From Fidelibacterota bacterium (GTDB lineage Bacteria; Fidelibacterota; Marinisomatia; Marinisomatales; TCS55): DNA of 64,000 nucleotides. Position numbers and translations under genes: made by a program. Below the pieces are notes generated by a model. The model was not told where the DNA came from, searched no databases, and saw only the letters and a program-made list of their open reading frames with translations. Below are positions 1,282-12,906 of the stretch, piece after piece; position 1 is the stretch's first letter; each line of letters starts with the position of its first letter. The stretch lies in the NCBI GenBank assembly GCA_004124385.1, contig SCKN01000003.1:107501-171500 (forward strand), in the 5' to 3' direction.

Positions 1282-2472
1282 ATGATGAAGAGACTACAAA
1301 AAACGGTTTATGGCCTGTTTATATTCATCATGTTTTCAGGCAACAATCTTCAGGCACAATCTGCCACGTTGGAACCGGAACCAGGTTTCACTGAATATGC
1401 TACATATTATATTAGCAGTTTTGACCTCCAGACAGGTGCATCTAATTTTCAATTGTTCCGATTTCGACTGCATTCTAATAGTTATCCCGTTTATGTTAAA
1501 ATTGTATTTAATGCTTCCATGACGTCTCCTGCATTGGGGCTTCATTCGCAATCAGTTATTGTGGAATTGGAGACAGCTCCTTTCCAAATGAGTGCAGATA
1601 TTATTTTGGATAATCAGGATATGTCTACAACCACAACACATTTAATAGATGTTTCGGGGAATACAGTTCCTTTGAGTATAAGTATTAATGATATGATTGA
1701 TCCATCGCAATTTGACGAAATTTTAAGTTCGATTATTACAACAGGTAGATTAGCAGATGGTACCTATACATTTGAAGTTCAAGTTTTTAGTGGCCCTTCT
1801 GAAGATGACTTGTCCCTTACAGATTCTGAAAATATAAATCTTGTGGTTGAATCACCCGCCAATATCAGTTTGGAATCTCCAGGAGGAGCACTCGAAGATA
1901 CATCATTAACTGAAATTTATAATACATTTCCACTCTTTATTTGGTATTCTCAATTCTGTTCACAATGTGAAGCTGAAATCAGGGTTGCAGAATATGTTCA
2001 TGGCACACATTCATCGATCAATGAAGCAATAGAGGATGAAACAATGCTGCCATTTGATCAATCGGCCGGTTGGGAATTTGTAGGGAATGTTTCCAGTTTT
2101 CAATATCCCGTTTCCAATGCTCGTTTATTAGAGCATGACAAAATTTATGTATGGCAGGTTAGAGCTTCGCTACCAACGACTGTTGGAGCAGAAGAAATTA
2201 TTTCACAAGTATATGCCTTTAAAGTAGGTGATATCGGCGGAGCCAATCCAGTTCCTGCAGGTGTAAATCCTGTGATTCAAGTACTCGGGCAAGCATTGTC
2301 TTCTGATCAATACAGCTCATTGTTTGGTGCCGGTGGAGCTCTGGAAGGATTTAACCCCACAGGCAATATTGCGATTAACGGTGCTGTTGCGTCTGAATCA
2401 GATATTATGTATTTATTCAATCAAGTTATTAATCAAAATGCCTCAATAGTCAATATTTCTGTAGAAGAATGA
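1282..2472 (+). CDS. Exported FN3-like protein of unknown function
   Basis: A protein of about 396 residues. The chosen start, ATG at 1282 (or the next codon, 1285), gives a signal peptide, MMKRLQKTVYGLFIFIMFSG, that should be cleaved near LQAQ; an upstream TTG at 1267 is in frame but less likely. The middle looks like beta-sandwich repeats. The segment with PLFIWYSQFCSQCEAEIRVA and a later YVWQVRA has the 'P.F.W ... Y.W.V.A' pattern common in fibronectin-III-like exported proteins. Two cysteines form a CxxC pair (SQFCSQCE). It overlaps the FecR gene by four bases, so the two are almost certainly co-translated. I do not recognise a named family. It probably acts in the periplasm or at the outer surface with the proteins that follow. 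Confidence 0.75.
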   Translation: MMKRLQKTVYGLFIFIMFSGNNLQAQSATLEPEPGFTEYATYYISSFDLQTGASNFQLFRFRLHSNSYPVYVKIVFNASMTSPALGLHSQSVIVELETAPFQMSADIILDNQDMSTTTTHLIDVSGNTVPLSISINDMIDPSQFDEILSSIITTGRLADGTYTFEVQVFSGPSEDDLSLTDSENINLVVESPANISLESPGGALEDTSLTEIYNTFPLFIWYSQFCSQCEAEIRVAEYVHGTHSSINEAIEDETMLPFDQSAGWEFVGNVSSFQYPVSNARLLEHDKIYVWQVRASLPTTVGAEEIISQVYAFKVGDIGGANPVPAGVNPVIQVLGQALSSDQYSSLFGAGGALEGFNPTGNIAINGAVASESDIMYLFNQVINQNASIVNISVEE

Positions 2473-3155
2473 TGGATAAGACAAAACACATAATAATTTT
2501 ACTTTTGGTTTTAATGTGGTGTTCTCCGTTAGAAAGTGCTGCAAAAATAGCCGTTACCACAAAAGTATCCGGAACAGTAGATATCGAACAGGCGGGAAGC
2601 AGTGGTTTGTCAGCATTAAAACCCGGTACAATTTTATCGGATGGTGATCGAATTATTACAGGTAAAAATGGTTTTACAGCCTTGATCTATATTGATGACA
2701 AATCCATGGTGAAGATAATGGCTAATACTGAAATAATAATCAAGGGGACTCATTCGACGGGCTCTATTTCAAAACAAGTTAATATTGATCGTGGAACACT
2801 ACGAGCGCAAGTAAATAAACAGCGCAAAGGCAAATTTGTTGTGCAAAGTTCTACATCAGTTGCCTCGGTTAAAGGGACAAATTTCTGGATGATTACAGAT
2901 CCGGAAACAGGCGATGTGCTCATCGCGCTGGAGGGATTAGTCAGTCTGACAAACTTGGTAAGTGGTGAAACAACCGATGTGGGAGCTGGAACAACTGGTA
3001 CATCATCAACAGATGGAAGTGTAGAAACATCTGAAACAAACCCCAGCGATATCCCAACTGATCCAGATGAAAGCGATACTCCAATTAATCAGATTGAAAT
3101 CGAATTGGAAGGTCCCGACGGCGTAATTAAAACGTTAATGATTGATATTCAATAA
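2469..3155 (+). CDS. FecR-domain periplasmic protein
   Basis: A 228-residue exported protein. It has an N-terminal signal peptide (MDKTKHIIILLLVLMWCSP) and then a FecR domain, roughly residues 30-165. The marks are 'LKPGTILSDGDRIITGKNGF', 'LIYIDDKSMVKIMANTEI', and 'GTLRAQV...FVVQSSTSVASVKGTNFW', the typical tandem-strand beta fold of FecR. A low-complexity acidic Ser/Thr/Asp/Glu tail follows. Classic FecR proteins are anti-sigma regulators with a cytoplasmic N-terminus. This one lacks that part and is free in the periplasm, like the FecR proteins found next to CHASE2 cyclases. It starts within the stop of the upstream gene (ATGA overlap) and precedes the beta-barrel gene by 34 bases. Its ligand is unknown. 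Confidence 0.85.
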   Translation: MMDKTKHIIILLLVLMWCSPLESAAKIAVTTKVSGTVDIEQAGSSGLSALKPGTILSDGDRIITGKNGFTALIYIDDKSMVKIMANTEIIIKGTHSTGSISKQVNIDRGTLRAQVNKQRKGKFVVQSSTSVASVKGTNFWMITDPETGDVLIALEGLVSLTNLVSGETTDVGAGTTGTSSTDGSVETSETNPSDIPTDPDESDTPINQIEIELEGPDGVIKTLMIDIQ

Positions 3156-3189
3156 ATCACCTACCGTTTCATAAATTGTACTACTGTAA

Positions 3190-5907
3190 ATGATGAAACG
3201 GATTCAAATTGCTGCACTAATACTGCTCTCAAATCTTTTTGCTTTTAGCGGTTCATATCTTTATCATGAGCCTCCTTTGGATGTGCGCGTTGGGCAAGAC
3301 CTAATTCTTTCTGCCATGCCTGTGTCCGACAATCAAGTTGTTGAAGCGCAAGGATATTATAGAATAAAGGGTAATATAAGTTTTCAAGAAGTTCATTTAC
3401 AGAACGTTCAAGCTACTTGGGAAATGAAAATAAATGGCCGGGCTCTTTCTGAAAAAGGATTAGAATATTGTTTTATATTCAAAATGTCGGATGGAGGGAT
3501 GCTGGCATTTCCGAAAGAGAATCCATTAGAACAGCCGCATGTACTTGTTGTGCTACCCATGATTTTTCCTGAAAAAATTATTGACGTTATAGAACCAGTA
3601 TTTCAGCAAGAATTTGTTTCAGCTGAAATATTAATATTAGCTCCTGAACCTGAGGCCGAGATTAATCCTGATGATGCTGTGATTGCCTTAAGTTTATTTA
3701 ATATACCTGATGTGGATTCTGCGAGTATTCGTTTAGTTGTTGATGGTAAAGATGTCACTGAACAAGCAGAGATCAGCGGCGGCATTGTAACATATATACC
3801 CAAGCGCTTTAAAAAAGGAATTCATTCTGTGCAGTTGACATTATCTATGTTGGATGGGACACCTATTAAACCAATATCTTGGACATTTTCAGTTTTAGGC
3901 GGATTAGCCATAGCCGGGAACGTTGATTACAGAGGAGATATTTCTGCAAGATATTTGAATGAATATGTGGGTGAAAATTTTCTAAATGTAGGTGAATTAA
4001 GAGGGAATGCAGAAGTGTCCGTCGACTTTGGTAAGGTCAAAACCAGTTTCAGACAAACAACAAGAGATAATCCGTATCGGCAACCGTTGAATCGTTTTTC
4101 GACAGCTTTACAATTTGGAGAATTCTTGGATATCCGAATGGGTGATTTTTATAGGTCAATTTCACCCTATACTTTGGACGGCCGCCGGGTGAGAGGTTTG
4201 AGCATTGATATAGATCTCAAATTCGTAAGATTGGAAGTAATTCAAGGTCAACTAAATAGAAAAGTTCAGCATTTAAATAAAACGAATGGTGCTTTGTTGC
4301 TGCCTTTAAATCCCGGTAAGGTTGATACGTTGGGACAGCTTTCATTTACAATGGATAGGACAGGATATACATTTGATAGAGAAATAACACTTGCTCGATT
4401 GTCTATAGACCTTTTTTCGAAATTTCAAATGGGGATTCATATTATGAAAGCCAAGGATGATATTAATTCGGTCAATAAAGATATTTCTGGTGCATCGTTT
4501 AGTGTGGACAGTACGGACATTATGGTCAACGATAGCTTGTATAATATTGCAGTAGGAGATTATTCTTATAATTCATTTGCCAATGCAATAGAAGCAGTGG
4601 GTGGAGTAATTAATTTCCCCGATAAAAACTGGGGAGGGCGCACTCCGGAAGATAATATTGTTGTTGGTTTTGATATAGGCACTGTCAGGGATAAGAAGCG
4701 CCTCAAATTAGATTTCAGCTGGAACTTCAGCATGTATAATCGGGATATCTGGGATGGGCCTATGTCATTAGCACAAATGGATACAATTATTGATGATACT
4801 GCCGATGGATTTATTGCTCAATCCTATGATGAAGATGGAAACGTTTCTACTGTGGGAATTGACACAACACAAATACCTATTAATCCTGTTAATATTCAAA
4901 ATATATTTGTGTATAATATTAATACAACACCGCTAATTCCGTATGACTATTTCGGTGCTAAAGAATTTCCAATTACAACCTATGTAAACATGCCGTCTTC
5001 GGCATTTCATTTTCGCATAATGGGTAATTACAGATATAGTAAATTCACAATGGTTTACAGACAAATTGGTCCTGAATTCGTGTCACTTGCGAATCCGTAT
5101 TTGACAACAAATATTCGAGAGTTTGTTTTCACAAACAGACTTGCTTTGATTGAAAATAAATTATTGATTAGCGCTACATATAAATACAAAGATGATAAAA
5201 TATTACGTATAGTTAAGGAACCGTTAATAACGAAAACACTCGTGGCTAGCCTAACATTTATGCCGGGTGCTAATGCTCCGAGTTTTGTTGTCAATTTTCA
5301 AACTATTGGAAAAAATAACAGTAAGACAGAACTGGAAAAAGTAGGTCAAGAATGGCAGGATTTTCGCCAGGATTCACGAACCAATAATTCATTCTTTTCA
5401 GTAACATATCCTTTTTCAATGGGAAGAATTAAACATAATTTGAATGTGAATGTAAATAAAATTGTTAATGAAGACCAACTTGCAGGAGATCGCAAAACGG
5501 ATTATTTTTTCCAAAAGTCTGATTCCAAAACAATGTCTTTGGCGCTTTCATCTCATTTCTCAATACCATTACGAACGATTGCCAATTTCAGCAGGACATC
5601 CATTCAGGTTCCTGTACAGGATATAGATGGAAATATAAGTGCAAATGAATTGGTCTGGACATCCATAAGCGGAAATGGACATTATTCATTTTTTAATAAT
5701 AAACTTAAAGTAAACGCAGGTTTAACATATTTAACAAATAAAGGGACAACGCCCATTTCATTATATGGTTTTAAAAGTGGCGCAGATTACACTATTATAA
5801 ATGGAATGACTGCTTCATTATCAGGGCATGTACATATACGAGATGATAATAGTGGATTTTCTCTAAATACATCAGGTTTTTTATTTTCATTTAGATATAA
5901 TTTCTAA
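3190..5907 (+). CDS. Predicted outer-membrane beta-barrel protein
   Basis: A 905-residue protein with a signal peptide (MKRIQIAALILLSNLFAFSG) that I cannot assign to a named family. Residues about 20-235 look like periplasmic beta-sandwich domains, including an Ig-like segment with 'SLFNIPDVDSASIRLVVDG'. From about residue 240 to the end there are many alternating amphipathic strands with aromatic girdles, and the chain ends in 'FSFRYNF'. A terminal phenylalanine after an alternating strand is the usual signature of a beta-barrel recognised by the BAM complex. The length would allow a large barrel. Position between the FecR gene and the CHASE2 cyclase (five bases upstream of the latter) suggests it is the outer-membrane element of that system. 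The function is inferred from context only. Confidence 0.75.
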   Translation: MMKRIQIAALILLSNLFAFSGSYLYHEPPLDVRVGQDLILSAMPVSDNQVVEAQGYYRIKGNISFQEVHLQNVQATWEMKINGRALSEKGLEYCFIFKMSDGGMLAFPKENPLEQPHVLVVLPMIFPEKIIDVIEPVFQQEFVSAEILILAPEPEAEINPDDAVIALSLFNIPDVDSASIRLVVDGKDVTEQAEISGGIVTYIPKRFKKGIHSVQLTLSMLDGTPIKPISWTFSVLGGLAIAGNVDYRGDISARYLNEYVGENFLNVGELRGNAEVSVDFGKVKTSFRQTTRDNPYRQPLNRFSTALQFGEFLDIRMGDFYRSISPYTLDGRRVRGLSIDIDLKFVRLEVIQGQLNRKVQHLNKTNGALLLPLNPGKVDTLGQLSFTMDRTGYTFDREITLARLSIDLFSKFQMGIHIMKAKDDINSVNKDISGASFSVDSTDIMVNDSLYNIAVGDYSYNSFANAIEAVGGVINFPDKNWGGRTPEDNIVVGFDIGTVRDKKRLKLDFSWNFSMYNRDIWDGPMSLAQMDTIIDDTADGFIAQSYDEDGNVSTVGIDTTQIPINPVNIQNIFVYNINTTPLIPYDYFGAKEFPITTYVNMPSSAFHFRIMGNYRYSKFTMVYRQIGPEFVSLANPYLTTNIREFVFTNRLALIENKLLISATYKYKDDKILRIVKEPLITKTLVASLTFMPGANAPSFVVNFQTIGKNNSKTELEKVGQEWQDFRQDSRTNNSFFSVTYPFSMGRIKHNLNVNVNKIVNEDQLAGDRKTDYFFQKSDSKTMSLALSSHFSIPLRTIANFSRTSIQVPVQDIDGNISANELVWTSISGNGHYSFFNNKLKVNAGLTYLTNKGTTPISLYGFKSGADYTIINGMTASLSGHVHIRDDNSGFSLNTSGFLFSFRYNF

Positions 5908-5912
5908 TTGTT

Positions 5913-8474
5913 ATGGATGGTTTTCTTAAATATTTCAAAACTAGGTGGATTGGTTTTGTTTTAACATTATTTTCTATACTTTTGGTTTCGTTATTACACT
6001 GGGTGGGCGTTTTTGATATAATTGAAATGAAAACGTATGATTGGCGTTTTCATAAAGTTCGGGGTCCACTAACCGGTTGGACAGCAAGAGATTCTTCATT
6101 TGCGAAAATTGGGACGGACATTGTATTGTTGGAAGTGGATGATGAAGCGTGGCGGCTCGTGCCGGAACAATGGCCTTATCCTCGTGGAACAGTCTGGGCT
6201 AGGGTAATACGAAATCTTTATCAGGCCGGTGCAAAAGTAATTGCCTTCGATATTCAATTTGACTCTCAGGAAACTAAATCGGGACAGCTTCATGATTTTG
6301 TTAAAGATTTAGATCAAGAAAAGATTCTAAATATGATTCCCCAATATGGCGATACTCTTTTAGCCGGTGAAATTGCGAAAGCTTTGCCTTCATTAGTCCC
6401 TCGTCACGGGGATCAATTATTAGCTGAAGCCATTGCAGAAGCAAAAGCCCATGGAACAGAAGTGGTCATCAATGTAAAAATGGTTACGGAACCCAATAGA
6501 CAGCCCCCGCAATATATTTCATATCCCATTGATAGAATTATGGCTGTAAATCCGGAAACAGGATTAATCAATGACCAGATGGATGATGATGGATTTTCTC
6601 GACGTTATGCCATTGCCGGATATATGGCTCATGAACCGGAAAAAGCATATTTAACCTTGGGTATGAAAGCAGTAAAAGCATTTGCAGACCTACCGGATAC
6701 AACGGTGCCCAGGTATGATCCCGATGATCGAACATGGACATACGGTCCCTACACAATAAATGCCTATGGACGGAGTAACACGTTTTTGGTTAATTATTAT
6801 GGACCGGCATCTGGGTATAGATTGCAAGCGGAAGAAAATATTCCGCCTTGGGGAACATTTCCGCGATTTTCAGTTGCTCATGTTATTGATACTGAAGATA
6901 TTGATTTGCAAAATCCTCTAGAAGATGTAGACTGGATGACACAATTCCTACCCGGAGAAATTCCTGAATGGATTAATGCCATTGAAGATCCGGTTGACAG
7001 GGCAGCAACGATGGAAGCCTTGGGTGTTGGAGCAAATTTTGATGTAACTAAAACGCCTTTTTATAATAAGATCGTCGTCATCGGCGTAGCCGTGGAAGTT
7101 ATTCATGATGTAAAATCAACTCCTTACTACAATTATTTAGGTGTCCAACAGTTGACTCCCGGGATGGAGACCCACGCCAACGCCATCCAGACTGTACTCC
7201 ATAAAAACTTTATTAGTACGTTTGGTGGTGTCGTAACAGATTTATCTCGCCATGGTTTTCCTATTGCGCATTTTTTACTCATAACCTTATTGGCGCTTAT
7301 TGCGTTTTTTCTTCTGGATTATGTGAACCCAATCATTGCAGCTGTATCGGTATTTATCGAGGGTATTTTATACTTTGGATTTGTGTGCGGTGCTTTTATG
7401 AATGATTATTTTTGGATGGTTAAAATCTTTTTCAGCAGGGATAGTATTGCCCTGCCCGGCATTGGGGAAAGCTATGTTTTACCTATGGTGGCACCCATAG
7501 TTGGGATTGGTATTACCTATGTCAGCAATATTTTATATCGTGTTTTGAATGAACAGAAAGATAAAAAATTCCTTAAGGATACGTTTGGGGCTTATATATC
7601 TCCAGAATTAATTGATCAGATGTATGAAGAAAAACAAGAACCCAAATTAGGTGGAAATACCGGCTATCATACAGCATTCTTTTCTGATATTCAGAGTTTT
7701 TCAGCTTTTTCAGAAGTGATGGAACCAGAAGCCATGGTAAAACTGATGAATGAATACTTGACAGAAATGACCAACATTCTTTTGGATCATCAAGGAACAT
7801 TAGATAAATATATTGGCGATTCCATCGTGGCGTTTTATGGAGCGCCGGTAACTGTGGAAGAGCATGAATTGTTGGCGTGCAAAACTGCTCTTGCTATGGA
7901 AAAGAAAATTGTCGAATTACGTGAAAAATGGAGCCATGAAGATGATAAACCTGATCTGGTGCATCATCTGCGCCATCGAGTTGGGTTGAATTCCGGACCT
8001 ATGGTTACGGGAAATATGGGGTCAGAAATGCGCATGAACTATACCATGATGGGCGATACGGTGAATGTGGCTGCACGTCTCGAATCCTCGGCAAAACTAT
8101 ATGGCGTATATATCCAAGTTGCGGAAAATACATATAAAAAAGTGAAAGATGAGTTTGAGTGGCGGACTCTGGATTACGTACGCGTAAAAGGGAAAAAAGT
8201 CCCGGTGCATGTATACGAACTATTATCTGAAAAAGGACAATTAGATGATGAAACGTCTAAAATGATTGGTGTTTTTCATGAAGGTCTTGAATTGTATAAT
8301 GATCAAAAGTGGAATGATGCATTGAAAAAGTTTGAAGAATCTGCAACATTAGAAGATGAATTTCCCACACGTCTCACGACACCCAGCAAAGTGTATATTT
8401 TCCGCTGTAATCATTTTATAGAAAATTTGCCGGAAAAGGATTGGGATGGCGTTTGGACCCTGACAACTAAATAG
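5913..8474 (+). CDS. CHASE2-domain class III adenylate/guanylate cyclase
   Basis: An 853-residue membrane cyclase. A first membrane segment (about residues 14-33) leads to a large periplasmic CHASE2 sensor domain (about 35-440), with the family's 'VLLEVDDEAW' and 'GAKVIAFDIQFD' motifs. A cluster of membrane helices (about 449-545) follows, then a class III nucleotide cyclase domain. Metal-binding Asp592 (FFSDIQSF) and Asp636 (YIGDSIVAF) are present, as are Lys632 in DKYIGD, which favours ATP as substrate, and the MGDTVNVAARLE motif with the catalytic Asn and Arg. The enzyme should make cAMP in the cytoplasm in response to a periplasmic signal. A TPR-like tail of about 70 residues follows. The neighbouring FecR and barrel genes probably supply or transmit that signal. 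Adenylate rather than guanylate specificity is an inference. Confidence 0.92.
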   Translation: MDGFLKYFKTRWIGFVLTLFSILLVSLLHWVGVFDIIEMKTYDWRFHKVRGPLTGWTARDSSFAKIGTDIVLLEVDDEAWRLVPEQWPYPRGTVWARVIRNLYQAGAKVIAFDIQFDSQETKSGQLHDFVKDLDQEKILNMIPQYGDTLLAGEIAKALPSLVPRHGDQLLAEAIAEAKAHGTEVVINVKMVTEPNRQPPQYISYPIDRIMAVNPETGLINDQMDDDGFSRRYAIAGYMAHEPEKAYLTLGMKAVKAFADLPDTTVPRYDPDDRTWTYGPYTINAYGRSNTFLVNYYGPASGYRLQAEENIPPWGTFPRFSVAHVIDTEDIDLQNPLEDVDWMTQFLPGEIPEWINAIEDPVDRAATMEALGVGANFDVTKTPFYNKIVVIGVAVEVIHDVKSTPYYNYLGVQQLTPGMETHANAIQTVLHKNFISTFGGVVTDLSRHGFPIAHFLLITLLALIAFFLLDYVNPIIAAVSVFIEGILYFGFVCGAFMNDYFWMVKIFFSRDSIALPGIGESYVLPMVAPIVGIGITYVSNILYRVLNEQKDKKFLKDTFGAYISPELIDQMYEEKQEPKLGGNTGYHTAFFSDIQSFSAFSEVMEPEAMVKLMNEYLTEMTNILLDHQGTLDKYIGDSIVAFYGAPVTVEEHELLACKTALAMEKKIVELREKWSHEDDKPDLVHHLRHRVGLNSGPMVTGNMGSEMRMNYTMMGDTVNVAARLESSAKLYGVYIQVAENTYKKVKDEFEWRTLDYVRVKGKKVPVHVYELLSEKGQLDDETSKMIGVFHEGLELYNDQKWNDALKKFEESATLEDEFPTRLTTPSKVYIFRCNHFIENLPEKDWDGVWTLTTK

Positions 8475-8475
8475 A

Positions 8476-8775
8476 ATGATTGAACACGATAAAAGTCACC
8501 ACCGTTTCGTATGGCAATGCGGAAAATATGAAGCAGCATTAATGTATGCCGTAAAAGGTGATATTTTAGACTTTTACCATATCTATACTCCAGATCCATT
8601 TAGGGGAGGTGATATTTCCACTTCAATCTTAAAACACGCATTTGATTACGCCCGAGATAACGGTTATCATGTAGTTCCTTCCTGTCCCTATATCGCCGGA
8701 ACCTTTTTGGAGCGATTCCCGGAATACAAGGATTTGGTGGATGAGGGTGTTTTTCCCTTTACAGAAAAGGAGTGA
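8476..8775 (+). CDS. Small GNAT-like N-acetyltransferase
   Basis: A 99-residue protein of the compact GNAT subfamily (PF14542, YjdJ-like). The marks are 'FYHIYTPDPFRGGDISTSIL' (acetyl-CoA loop with R-G-G in place of the usual Q/R-x-x-G-x-G/A), 'HAFDYARDNGYHVVPSCPY' and 'FLERFPEYKDL'. The length is normal for this short family. The start lies one base after the cyclase stop, so it is the last gene of that operon. The substrate is unknown. Proteins of this type are widespread and often sit at the end of unrelated operons, so a link to cAMP signalling is not established. Confidence 0.85.
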   Translation: MIEHDKSHHRFVWQCGKYEAALMYAVKGDILDFYHIYTPDPFRGGDISTSILKHAFDYARDNGYHVVPSCPYIAGTFLERFPEYKDLVDEGVFPFTEKE

Positions 8776-8836
8776 GCAGCAGGATTATTAAGACAGTATG
8801 TTCTTTCCGGCAGGGTCTTAAGTATCAAAATACTGA

Positions 8837-9244
8837 TTAATCATACATGGGTCGTTCACCATCTTCATAAAACCAAAATCGAAGTTCATCTTCCATCCAA
8901 TAATATATTACCCCAATTACCATTTCGTCATTGAATGTAAATAATTCAGTTATAAATTTATCATCCATTTTGACGATAATTTGATGATCACCTCTATCTA
9001 ATTCAACATATAAAATATGCGCCAAACTCAATACGGGCTCTGAAGTAACAGCTCCATTAAAGAGTTTTTTATCATCAATTTTAATAGTTATGGTATCATC
9101 CTGAAAAAAATATTGAATATGAATTTCAAAATCTTCAATTGTGGAGGGAAAATCTTGAACAGTATTAATAGGTATTGATTTAAGCAATAGAGGTAGTTTA
9201 TCGTTTTCGCTATTATCGCAACTGAGACCTATTAATAAAACCAA
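8837..9244 (-). CDS. Hypothetical lipoprotein
   Basis: A 135-residue protein, possibly starting at a TTG codon (MVLLIGLSCDNSEND). The short hydrophobic lead with 'LIGLSC' looks like a lipobox, so the mature protein would be anchored through Cys9. This lead is unusually short. The rest has beta-strand character (FEIHIQYFFQDDTITIKIDD, 'HQIIVKMDDKFITELFTF') and ends with a tryptophan-rich segment. Its start overlaps the end of the upstream minus-strand fragment by 13 bases, which suggests translational coupling to a gene that is now broken. I do not recognise the family. It may itself be a fragment that lost its normal signal peptide. Confidence 0.5.
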   Translation of the reverse strand: MVLLIGLSCDNSENDKLPLLLKSIPINTVQDFPSTIEDFEIHIQYFFQDDTITIKIDDKKLFNGAVTSEPVLSLAHILYVELDRGDHQIIVKMDDKFITELFTFNDEMVIGVIYYWMEDELRFWFYEDGERPMYD

Positions 9245-9606
9245 TATAACATTGTCTTATTTGATACAATCTTTGGTTTAGAACCATTAATGGGAGAATA
9301 GTAAAGATTATAAAAATATATGCCAGAAGGTAATAGATTTCCATCTGATCTACGACCTTCCCATTTATATGAATGAACACCTTTTTCTAACGTTTCAAAT
9401 TTATCAGGAATTTGATCGGCAATAATTTTTGATGGATTCTCATAAATAAATATCACTTGATTCGATGGCGATGATTCATTACTAAAAGTTGTAACATCTG
9501 TTACCTGGTATGTCGCATTCTCAGCTTCTCTTGGATATATAATAAAACTATTATCAATATAGGAGGTGGATGGTTGTGTTGCCCGAAGTGTAAACGCCCC
9601 TCCATT
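9232..9606 (-). pseudogene. Remnant of a secreted protein with a FlgD-Ig-like C-terminal domain
   Basis: An open frame of about 125 codons without a convincing start; a stop codon precedes it at 9607-9609 and the only good ATG is at 9456. The end matches the FlgD-Ig / T9SS-type C-terminal domain: 'VIFIYENPSKIIADQI', 'GVHSYKWEGRRSDGNLLPSG' and 'IYFYNLYYSP'. The upstream 'YPREAENATYQVTD' belongs to the same domain or to a linker. A normal gene of this type would be hundreds of residues longer and begin with a signal peptide, so this is best read as the 3' remainder of a larger gene. It ends in 'NKTMLYWFY' rather than the usual 'TRKMVLLK'. Confidence 0.55.
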
Positions 9607-9827
9607 TTACTCCGTTGCGGGAAGGGATACAAGGAAAGAGCCAAGCAGTCGCTTGACACATTTAACAGAACGTTTCGAATTTGATAGAGTTTTTTTACAT
9701 TTTGAAAGGTGATATGTTATTACCATCTATTTATGTATGCTATCAATTTTGGAAGAATATAGTTATCAATCTAATTGAACAATTACCTCCATGAGCAATT
9801 CTATAATCCGTAATTTCTTTTTCTATT

Positions 9828-11387
9828 ATGACTAAAAATCGCGGAAATATCCTTTGGGTCGATGACGAAGTTGACCATTTAAAGCCCCATATTATTTTCT
9901 TGGAAGATAAAGGGTTTAACATGTCCAAAACCACCAATGGTCAGGATGCTGTTACTATGGTGAGTCGGGATGCCTATGATCTTGTATTATTGGATCAATA
10001 TATGCCCGGAAAAGACGGTATGACCACCCTCCGTGAAATCAAAGAGATCAAACCGGGACTCCCCGTAATTTTGATTACCAAGAGTGAGGAAGAAGATCTC
10101 ATGGATGAAGCTATTTCCGAAAATGTGGCTCAATTCCTCATTAAACCGGTGAATCCAACCCAGATATTCATGGCCTGCAAACAGGTGTTAGAGCAGTCAA
10201 AGATTCGGGAAGAAAGTGCTACCAGAGGTTATTTGCAGGAATTTCAAAAAATCCAATTTCAACTGCAGGAAGAAATGTCAGCGGATGATTGGTGGGATAT
10301 ATATTCACGATTGGTGAAATGGCAATTAGAATTTGATAATCACCCAGATATTAGTTTGGGAGATATTCTTGCTGAACAAATACAGTCTGCTAATAGCCAA
10401 TTTGTAAAATTTATAACAACACATTATAAGAATTGGTTGTTTAAGGAGGATCGTCCAGTTTTATCCAATGATGTCTTTAAAACATTTGTAAAGCCGGAAA
10501 TTGAACAACAGCGTAAAACGTGTTTAGTCGTTATCGATGCATTGCGTTATGATCAATTCAAGGTTATCCAGGATTTTCTGAACCCCTATTATGACATAAA
10601 GTTTGATTACCAATTTTCATTGTTACCTACAGCAACACCTTTTAGCCGCAATGCCATTTTTTCCGGTTTATTTCCTGATGAATTTATTAAACGGTTTCCG
10701 GAACAATTGAATGATATGGTCACCCACGCCAAAAGCTTAAATCAGCATGAGAAAAAAATGATGCGGTTTGCCATGGATAAAGCCGGGTTCAAAGAAAAAA
10801 CCTTACGTTATGAGAAAATTAATACTGCTGAACAGGGTAAAAGATTCCAATCGCATTATTCAGAAATAAAGAATATAGATGTGTTGGGATTGGTCGTCAA
10901 TTTTGTAGATATGCTGGCCCATAAACGAGCTGAATCGGATGTGTTGAAAGAAATGGTTCCGGATGTATCGGGCTATCGATCGGCGATTCGAACGTGGTTT
11001 GAGCATTCCTGGCTATTTACATTATTAAGAGATTTAAGCCGAGATGGTTTTACGGTTATTATGACCAGTGACCATGGCAGCGCTCAAGTTTCAAAGGGAG
11101 TTTTGGTCGGAGCCGATAAAGAAACATCTAAAGGTGTTCGCTATAAGATTGGCCGAAATTTGAGCACCAATGAAAAACATGCTTTAATCATTCGTCATCC
11201 GGCAGATTACCGTTTAATCAATTTAATGCACCAAACCACGTATCTCATCGCTAAAGAAGATGTATTTTTTCTCTATCCAAACCAACAGCATAAATATGAA
11301 AGTCGCTTGAAAGATAGTTTCCAGCATGGTGGAATTTCATTGGAAGAAATGATGGTTCCGGTGGTAACAATGCGCAGTAAATCCTGA
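9828..11387 (+). CDS. porX: PorX-type response regulator with PglZ phosphatase domain
   Basis: A 519-residue two-domain protein matching the length of PorX from Bacteroidota. Residues 7-125 form a receiver domain with the acidic pair in 'LWVDDEV', the phospho-acceptor Asp56 in 'LLDQYMPGKDG' and Lys in 'FLIKPVNP'. A helical linker follows. From about residue 230 there is a PglZ domain of the alkaline-phosphatase superfamily, with metal ligands in 'VVIDALRYDQF' (Asp237) and 'MTSDHGSAQV', and Thr268/Thr270 in 'LPTATPFSRN' where the nucleophile lies. In Bacteroidota, PorX, activated by the kinase PorY, controls T9SS genes and hydrolyses cyclic oligonucleotides. It sits directly upstream of tsaE, an arrangement also seen in Bacteroidota. 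Specific activity here is inferred from family. Confidence 0.93.
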   Translation: MTKNRGNILWVDDEVDHLKPHIIFLEDKGFNMSKTTNGQDAVTMVSRDAYDLVLLDQYMPGKDGMTTLREIKEIKPGLPVILITKSEEEDLMDEAISENVAQFLIKPVNPTQIFMACKQVLEQSKIREESATRGYLQEFQKIQFQLQEEMSADDWWDIYSRLVKWQLEFDNHPDISLGDILAEQIQSANSQFVKFITTHYKNWLFKEDRPVLSNDVFKTFVKPEIEQQRKTCLVVIDALRYDQFKVIQDFLNPYYDIKFDYQFSLLPTATPFSRNAIFSGLFPDEFIKRFPEQLNDMVTHAKSLNQHEKKMMRFAMDKAGFKEKTLRYEKINTAEQGKRFQSHYSEIKNIDVLGLVVNFVDMLAHKRAESDVLKEMVPDVSGYRSAIRTWFEHSWLFTLLRDLSRDGFTVIMTSDHGSAQVSKGVLVGADKETSKGVRYKIGRNLSTNEKHALIIRHPADYRLINLMHQTTYLIAKEDVFFLYPNQQHKYESRLKDSFQHGGISLEEMMVPVVTMRSKS

Positions 11388-11397
11388 AATAGTTTCC

Positions 11398-11841
11398 ATG
11401 TCTGATCATTTTACGATAAATTTGGATAGTATTTCTGCAACACAAAATTTTGCATCTGAAATGGCTGCAAAAATTCAAAATCCATGTGTCATTGCCATGA
11501 CAGGAGACCTTGGCAGTGGAAAAACAACTTTTACTCAAGGATTTGCAAGAGGAATGGGCATCAAGGATAATGTGGGTTCACCCACATTTAAATTGGTAAG
11601 CGAATACAAAGGCGAACATTTATTGTTGAATCACGTGGATTGTTATCGACTGGAAAATGAAAAAGATTTTTTCAATATTGGCGGTGAAAAGTATTTAGTA
11701 CCGGATGGAGCAATCACCATAATAGAATGGTCAGAGAAAATTACTAACGTGATTCCCCGGGATGCCATCATCATTGATTTCAAGCGAATTCCGGAAAAAC
11801 CGGATGTTAGGATTTTGATGATCGAAGGTTGGACACCGTGA
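11398..11841 (+). CDS. tsaE: tRNA threonylcarbamoyladenosine biosynthesis ATPase TsaE
   Basis: A 147-residue cytoplasmic ATPase, normal length for TsaE (YjeE). The Walker A motif 'GDLGSGKTTFTQGFARG' is at about residue 35, followed by 'VGSPTFKLVSEY' (switch I-like), 'HVDCYRL' and 'IIEWSEKI', all diagnostic of the family. TsaE works with TsaB and TsaD to place the t6A modification on A37 of ANN-decoding tRNAs; TsaB is the next gene (13-base overlap), while tsaD is not in this window. It lies ten bases after porX. Confidence 0.95.
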   Translation: MSDHFTINLDSISATQNFASEMAAKIQNPCVIAMTGDLGSGKTTFTQGFARGMGIKDNVGSPTFKLVSEYKGEHLLLNHVDCYRLENEKDFFNIGGEKYLVPDGAITIIEWSEKITNVIPRDAIIIDFKRIPEKPDVRILMIEGWTP

Positions 11842-12473
11842 ATATTCTCGCCATTGAAACAGCGACAGAAGTGTGTGGCATCGCTTATTACGAAAATGAT
11901 TCGATTAAGGGAATTGAAGAAAAAATCATTCCCCGCCAGCACGCTGCATCTTTGCCTTTGTTTTATAAAGCTCTGCAGGAAAAAACGGGATTATTATTAA
12001 ATACGCTGGACGGAATTGCAGTGTCCATGGGTCCGGGATCGTTTACTGGTTTGAGAATTGGGTTAAGTTATGCCAAAGGGCTTGCCTTCAGCCATGATTT
12101 ACCGATTATTCCAGTACCCACTTTGCAAGCGATTGCTTCTGATGTACATTTAGATGATGAATTTCACGTTTTAGTTTTTTCACATCGCGATATGATTTAT
12201 CATCAAAAATTTTCAGCAGACCTTCAACAAAAGTCCAATGCAGCAGTCAGCAAATGGTCAGACTTAAAACCGTTAATTGAAAATAGTGCCTGTTTCCATA
12301 TTAAGTGTGATACATTTCTGGAAGATCATGACAGAGCACATAAAGTGCAGCCATCTGCAAAAAATATTGGTTCACTGGCATTAACTTATTATGCTGATTG
12401 GGTTGAAGAAAAACCGTATGCATTGGTTCCAAACTATATTGCTCCATTTGAAATAAAAATACCAAATGATTAG
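11829..12473 (+). CDS. tsaB: tRNA threonylcarbamoyladenosine biosynthesis protein TsaB
   Basis: A 214-residue protein of the ASKHA fold. It opens with 'NILAIETATEVCGIAYYEND' and carries the family signature 'VSMGPGSFTGLRIGLSYAKG' and 'IPVPTLQAIA'. TsaB has no catalytic site of its own. It forms a heterodimer with TsaD and binds TsaE during t6A synthesis. The frame overlaps tsaE by 13 bases and rimI by eight, the standard tsaE-tsaB-rimI order of many bacteria. The C-terminal half is short and divergent (as often in FCB bacteria), ending 'LVPNYIAPFEIK'. Confidence 0.94.
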   Translation: MDTVNILAIETATEVCGIAYYENDSIKGIEEKIIPRQHAASLPLFYKALQEKTGLLLNTLDGIAVSMGPGSFTGLRIGLSYAKGLAFSHDLPIIPVPTLQAIASDVHLDDEFHVLVFSHRDMIYHQKFSADLQQKSNAAVSKWSDLKPLIENSACFHIKCDTFLEDHDRAHKVQPSAKNIGSLALTYYADWVEEKPYALVPNYIAPFEIKIPND

Positions 12474-12906
12474 ACGAGCAAATATAAATGATGTCGACGT
12501 TATTACAGAAATTGAGATCAGGGTTTTTCGACATCCATGGAACAAAAAACAAATTCTACAGGAATTAAAACAAGAAAATGGAAAAGTAGTTTATGTTGAG
12601 ATTGAGGAAGTCATTATTGGATATATCATGATTCAAACTGTGAAAAATGAATCCCAAATTTTGAATATTGCAATAGATTTACCTTTCCAACACCGTGGAT
12701 TTGGCAAAAAACTATTGCAGCATACTTTGGGTGAACTTGGTGCTGAAACAGATGTATTTTTAGAAGTGCGCGAATCCAATTTGCCGGCTATTAAGTTATA
12801 CTCTGAATTTAACTTCGAAGAAATTGGTGTTCGTGAACAGTATTACTCTGATGGCGAAGACGCCATAGTTATGTTTAAAAAAGCTGAATCGTATGTCCTG
12901 GTATAA
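12466..12906 (+). CDS. rimI: Ribosomal-protein-alanine N-acetyltransferase RimI-like
   Basis: A 146-residue GNAT enzyme. The acetyl-CoA loop is visible in 'DLPFQHRGFGKKLLQHTL' (R-G-F-G-K), with upstream strand 'SQILNIAIDLPFQ' and downstream 'VFLEVRESNLPAIKLYSEFN', the RimI signature. The C-terminal 'REQYYSDGEDAIVMFKK' is also typical. RimI acetylates the N-terminal alanine of ribosomal protein S18 in E. coli; in other lineages its targets are broader. It overlaps tsaB by eight bases and accD by 14, so the block is translated as one unit. Confidence 0.92.
   Translation: MIRRANINDVDVITEIEIRVFRHPWNKKQILQELKQENGKVVYVEIEEVIIGYIMIQTVKNESQILNIAIDLPFQHRGFGKKLLQHTLGELGAETDVFLEVRESNLPAIKLYSEFNFEEIGVREQYYSDGEDAIVMFKKAESYVLV

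Follow-up and report, generated by a model that had tools for sequence, protein, structure and literature searches.

We analysed a window of 64,000 nucleotides (contig SCKN01000003.1, positions 107,501 to 171,500) from a bacterium of the Fidelibacterota, an uncultured marine phylum earlier named Marinimicrobia. These bacteria are abundant in the sea and, to our knowledge, almost nothing about their signalling has been studied by experiment. At 1282-8474 of the window, we found four open reading frames (ORFs) on the + strand that form a putative envelope-signalling operon and encode an FN3-like protein, a FecR protein, a predicted outer-membrane barrel and a CHASE2 adenylate cyclase (lengths in amino acids, aa):

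1282-2472, + strand: FN3-like gene, 396 aa
2469-3155, + strand: FecR gene, 228 aa, overlapping the FN3-like gene by 4 bases
3190-5907, + strand: barrel gene, 905 aa, after a 34-base gap behind the FecR gene
5913-8474, + strand: CHASE2 cyclase gene, 853 aa, after a 5-base gap behind the barrel gene

The ORF list confirms the coordinates and the three junctions (4-base overlap, 34-base gap and 5-base gap) of an earlier note on this DNA, which had proposed a complete route, with a dedicated barrel, from the outer membrane to cyclic adenosine monophosphate (cAMP).

Products of the four genes

The 905-aa protein was modelled with AlphaFold2 from 63 window and locus sequences (mean pLDDT 87.9, pTM 0.66). 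The model has a signal segment, two Ig-like domains (residues about 24-119 and 148-235) and 26 long strands at 246-904, and the C-terminus, Y-x-F, is kept throughout the family. Hence, the protein does model as a barrel, and its earlier description as a 905-residue barrel ending in F holds. Both ends of the barrel are periplasmic in the model, as expected of an outer-membrane barrel, and its loops alternate between long ones (277 residues in total, outer by topology) and 2-7-residue turns (40 residues in total); the model suggests that the barrel is closed. Conservation is higher in the outer loop 518-603 (0.57) and in the loop 627-641 (0.77) than in the strands (0.49). Such conserved outer loops are unusual at the surface and would be compatible with a ligand site or an internal plug.

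Using Foldseek, we found MtrB as the best PDB structure match of the 905-aa protein (6r2q_B, E 1e-11, TM 0.52 by target length), followed by TonB-dependent receptors and the usher FimD. The protein has no Pfam family, no usable NCBIfam match and no PDB sequence match, and a profile of its family gave weak matches only, to the Ig-like domain of PPAD.

The first two genes encode exported or periplasmic proteins. The FN3-like protein is a tandem beta-sandwich (AlphaFold2 mean pLDDT 84), in agreement with the exported beta-sandwich protein proposed earlier; Foldseek matched it to tandem FN3/Ig proteins, at low TM by query. It has no Pfam match and no usable NCBIfam match; its label is fair for the fold class, not for the family. 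It is a conserved partner in three-gene and four-gene modules alike. The FecR protein (PF04773, 1.7e-11) is predicted to be periplasmic and consists of an N-terminal hydrophobic segment (7-28) and the FecR domain; no cytoplasmic anti-sigma domain was found by Pfam and hydrophobic segment analysis, as the earlier note had said, and its reading as a periplasmic link is likely.

The cyclase combines a CHASE2 domain (PF05226, 8e-32) with a class III cyclase domain (PF00211, 5e-25) and has hydrophobic segments at about 10-39, 447-496 and 522-541; its closest solved structure is CyaB (3r5g, 2e-34). All 32 homologues in the comparison keep D592, K632, D636, D715, N718 and R722 unchanged. From what is established for class III cyclases, we take D592 and D636 to bind metal, K632 and D715 to contact the purine, and N718 and R722 to act on the transition state. 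With the metal and purine residues intact, as first claimed, the enzyme appears active from its sequence.

Linkage, genomic position and promoter

A scan of the genomes of ~85,000 species with two short conserved patterns, which distant relatives outside the phylum could escape, gave 94 relatives of the 905-aa protein, essentially all from Fidelibacterota/Marinimicrobia; 80 were kept for the locus comparison. Copies assigned to Gracilimonas (L074) and Dehalococcoidia (L146) were rejected as transfers, as they sit on very short branches beside Fidelibacterota and are probably misbinned contigs, and two giant fusions (L046, 2819 aa; L054, 1737 aa) reflect runs of N in draft assemblies and are not proteins. 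Within the phylum, the protein is present in 46 of 61 genomes by protein search and, by profile search, in 141 of 175 genomes with completeness of at least 80% (130 of these matches are strong).

The order FN3-like, FecR, barrel, CHASE2 is invariable over the 80 loci. CHASE2 follows the barrel in 51 of the 63 loci that have at least 1500 bases downstream, and the median junctions are -1, 33 and 4 bases. Upstream FecR and FN3-like genes missed by the ORF caller were nearly all recovered by tblastn, save where the sequence was broken or missing. Since order and spacing recur throughout the phylum, the four-gene arrangement is not due to chance; the genes are not separated in most relatives, and the genetically linked unit of the earlier note stands. 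Over the 175 genomes, 127 have both barrel and CHASE2, 3 the barrel only, 13 CHASE2 only and 32 neither, and CRP co-occurs with both (all raw counts, uncorrected for kinship). In a family of small genomes (f15, 14 genomes listed), barrel, CHASE2 and CRP are all absent.

The window starts inside the 23S ribosomal RNA (rRNA) gene, which is followed by the 5S rRNA gene (Rfam finds the 5S and the 3' part of the 23S), and the operon starts 116 bases past the end of the 5S rRNA:

1048-1165: 5S rRNA (Rfam)
1173-1201, + strand: rRNA-operon terminator hairpin, a 13-pair stem followed by a T run, between the 5S rRNA and the operon
1207-1222, + strand: CRP-type palindrome TGTGATATAAATCAAT, 2 mismatches to TGTGA-N6-TCACA, ~60 bases before the FN3-like start codon

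We found 23S/5S rRNA genes just upstream in 39 of the 41 cyclase-linked loci with enough upstream sequence and, among 12 cyclase-less loci, in L078 only, which is an orthologue that has lost the adjacent cyclase and kept the other three genes. Hence, the position behind the rRNA genes appears to be ancestral and vertically inherited. As rRNA genes lie beside the operon, many draft contigs break at it.

The palindrome TGTGA-N6-TCACA recurs phylum-wide in the intergenic regions behind the 5S rRNA. A site with at most 2 mismatches occurs in 29 of 36 non-redundant loci, and the distance from the site to the end of the region, used as an approximation of the FN3-like start, is 36-145 bases. In the 36 regions, the best site has 1.92 mismatches on average compared with 3.62 (standard deviation 0.11) in dinucleotide shuffles, and 14 of the 36 regions reach at most 1 mismatch where 0.13 are expected. 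Among 30 permuted half-site palindromes, this one ranks first by far (mean of the next, 3.06). The three-gene paralogues have no clear CRP site; they and the second cyclase locus of the genome (described below) stand at 2-4 mismatches. The only perfect site in the whole genome lies at a contig edge. Since a CRP-type site is conserved at the promoter, a cAMP receptor is predicted to control this cAMP-making operon.

A putative route from the surface to cAMP

The genome has two class III cyclases in total, both with CHASE2 and both preceded by a FecR gene. The gene of the second cyclase (769 aa, G000:C4) is preceded by a FecR gene (261 aa, PF04773 3.7e-18) and, before that, by a gene for a 5083-aa protein with a match to the type IX sorting domain at its end:

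G000:C4:198350-216755 (L155, L158), outside the window: second FecR-CHASE2-cyclase pair, with the 5083-aa surface-type protein before it and no barrel beside it

Four proteins of the genome are predicted to bind cyclic nucleotides, and one only of them has a CRP DNA-binding domain. This single CRP-type protein is 237 aa long, and its recognition helix reads RETVSR; that of E. coli CRP reads RETVGR, so both match the form RETVxR. As one of two class III cyclases in the genome, both FecR-paired, is encoded here, the operon looks like a main input to the cAMP system of Fidelibacterota, present phylum-wide and absent from small-genome members.

We favour, with some confidence, a surface-to-cAMP signalling route that would run from the barrel via the FN3-like and FecR proteins to the cyclase, with feedback through CRP. 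The 26-strand barrel would sense an external cue or the state of the outer membrane, and its periplasmic Ig-like domains, together with the exported FN3-like protein, would relay the signal to the FecR protein. The cyclase, in the inner membrane, would have its CHASE2 domain in the periplasm, where the FecR protein may touch it and so change cAMP output. The cAMP would be read by the single CRP-type regulator, which may bind the promoter of the operon and thereby close a feedback loop. We computed the gene identities, their fixed order, the structure models, the catalytic residues, the CRP-type site and the co-occurrence of barrel, CHASE2 and CRP; from these, we infer the protein contacts, the direction of the signal, a ligand, cAMP production and CRP binding at the site.

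A route of this kind has precedents. The CHASE2 cyclases CyaK and CyaD1/CyaD2 of Sinorhizobium meliloti require NsrA, a protein of the outer membrane, to make cAMP in response to a signal, and Clr reads this cAMP (PMC7529298, PMC13001267). In Campylobacterota, every adenylate cyclase has CHASE2, and most are encoded in clusters that also include genes for a phosphodiesterase, a TPR protein and an outer-membrane protein with a FecR domain (PMC9239204). Hence, the statement of the earlier note that no system of this composition had been described is wrong. As in the NsrA cascade, an outer-membrane beta-barrel (here, the 26-strand model and its PDB barrel matches) goes with a CHASE2 class III cyclase whose catalytic residues are intact. 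The CRP-family reader of that cascade has a candidate counterpart in the single CRP-type protein, and the conserved CRP-type site at the operon would be its predicted target. In contrast to that cascade, FecR and FN3-like proteins are separate here and share the operon with the cyclase; PMC7529298 and PMC13001267 report no FN3-like partner. NsrA, compared by description only, is ~1200 aa long with its barrel in the last 600 residues, compared with 26 strands here. The operon shares with the Campylobacterota cluster a FecR-domain protein beside a CHASE2 cyclase; unlike that cluster, it has no cAMP phosphodiesterase or TPR protein, its neighbours being GNAT and PorX genes, and it has one gene each for FecR, FN3-like protein and barrel.

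Similar arrangements occur elsewhere. On plasmids of Shinella (L165) and Paracoccus (L168), we found triplets of same-strand genes, the first for a TPR-plus-barrel-like protein, the second for a FecR protein and the last for a CHASE2 cyclase. Their barrel-type protein is a small TPR-plus-barrel, weakly like the surface lipoprotein assembly modifier and with nothing to suggest that it is related to the 905-aa barrel, and their FecR protein has a weak TbpB-like C-terminal match; a search of PLSDB with FecR alone gave weak matches only. In the BiofilmReg operon of Burkholderia, a periplasmic LysM-FecR protein adjoins a CHASE2 histidine kinase (PMC5192318); there, unlike here, the output is a histidine kinase with a response regulator, FecR is fused to LysM and there is no barrel. 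FecA-FecR-FecI is similar in outline, with an outer-membrane barrel, a periplasmic FecR domain and a step into the cytoplasm, but FecR here lacks the anti-sigma part and the output is a cyclase. Unlike FecA, the 905-aa protein has no Pfam match to a TonB-dependent plug domain or TonB receptor and, as regards FecI, no sigma factor was found among the seven proteins of 1282-11387 with Pfam and NCBIfam.

In view of these systems, the general plan of barrel, FecR and CHASE2 enzyme is known or recurrent. As far as tested, the phylum-specific traits are the 26-strand barrel family with its FN3-like partner, a FecR that stands alone, the location behind the rRNA genes and the CRP-type site. The operon is real and conserved, probably serves as a signalling unit and is a lineage-specific variant of a known plan; it would probably work like the system of the plant symbiont S. 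meliloti while being built from different parts. It also suggests a general role for stand-alone FecR proteins, as adaptors that connect CHASE2 enzymes with barrels in the outer membrane.

Several observations weigh against the surface-to-cAMP route. In a tree of 77 barrels, those that lack a neighbouring cyclase fall into two supported clades, of 13 and 4 rows, and their loci keep the FN3-like and FecR genes in the same order among unrelated neighbours. The FN3-FecR-barrel trio is a module in its own right and has another role or output in these clades. Since it also occurs without a cyclase, its role need not be limited to feeding the cAMP system; the complete route proposed earlier is unproven, and the idea of a route dedicated to cAMP is weakened. 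In the CRP-type protein, an alignment by eye places S/D opposite T127/S128 of E. coli, and hence cAMP binding is likely, not certain. The 2-mismatch level of the CRP-type site in the window is also met by chance elsewhere in the window, so the significance of this predicted site rests on its place and conservation, not on its mismatch count.

The cyclase-less paralogues of the two clades would also fit a trio that serves as an outer-membrane machine (channel, assembly or attachment), with a cyclase that is co-expressed or monitors it and is not driven by a ligand. The rRNA-linked L078 locus, with its trio kept and its cyclase lost, and the best structural match, MtrB, which is a sheath and conduit and not a receptor, point the same way. 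However, rRNA-linked copies nearly always retain the cyclase, and the second cyclase follows FecR with no such barrel beside it, which points to a functional FecR-cyclase pair; we regard such a machine as doubtful. We also consider it very improbable that unrelated genes were merely held together by a conserved rRNA-tsaE/tsaB neighbourhood: the place behind the rRNA genes and before porX-tsaE-tsaB is conserved, but the junctions overlap or nearly do so, the trio occurs as a unit at other places, and barrel, CHASE2 and CRP are jointly absent in some families.

The module could instead belong to the control of the type IX secretion system (T9SS), sensing the status of T9SS or of surface proteins and acting with PorX, which is encoded downstream:

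9828-11387, + strand: PorX, T9SS response regulator with PglZ domain (NF052313 7e-187; PDB 7pv7 1.5e-126)

PorX lies downstream of CHASE2 within ~1.8 kb in 39 loci, with a gap of 12-64 bases in 21, and in many relatives it is part of one putative transcription unit with the module. We found SprA (5.8e-42) and 81 matches to the T9SS sorting domain in the genome, the second FecR-CHASE2 pair stands behind the 5083-aa protein with its sorting domain, and the first Ig-like domain of the barrel weakly matches that of the P. gingivalis T9SS cargo PPAD (E 0.009). Yet no PorX was seen in 14 cyclase loci, on contigs some of which end early, and in the window it is 1.3 kb off, behind an opposite-strand ORF; PorX also overlaps tsaE, so its position may be historical. 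Nor is it an obvious cAMP-degrading partner, a role that we dropped, since the BREX PglZ, related to its effector domain, cleaves cyclic oligonucleotides and not cyclic mononucleotides (PMC12205998). That the module is part of T9SS control seems unlikely. Tentatively, the 26-strand barrel with its conserved outer loops, the FN3-like partner and the stand-alone FecR might make up a phylum-specific type of receptor, a reusable envelope sensor trio, with one copy on cAMP/CRP feedback and linked to PorX/T9SS, and other copies working without a cyclase.

Neighbouring genes and variants of the trio

One base behind the cyclase lies a further gene:

8476-8775, + strand: GNAT-like acetyltransferase (PF14542, 2e-18)

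As a GNAT-like gene in this place is confined to the closest relatives (L071, L072 and L093), it is not a core part of the operon. It is followed on the - strand by an ORF for a small lipoprotein-like protein (8837-9244, 135 aa); a match of this ORF to SLT_beta (17 bits against a cut-off of 27) was taken as chance.

The genes porX, tsaE, tsaB and an acetyltransferase gene are tightly packed at 9828-12906, and most relatives keep the porX-tsaE overlap, in many cases just after the cyclase. In relatives without an adjacent porX (L034, L038, L044 and L042), a small lipoprotein with a cohesin-like segment, as judged by eye, follows the cyclase or barrel, and several of these also have a very large surface-type protein downstream.

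The trio varies in cyclase-less loci. In one clade (L059, L060 and L061), repeated beta-like segments bring the FecR protein to a length of 522-698 aa, and in another barrel (L066:2949-5729), a different N-terminal domain of ~120 aa replaces the first Ig-like domain. In two related genomes (L119 and L120), a stand-alone receiver-domain protein (129 aa) follows the trio and is a possible alternative output.

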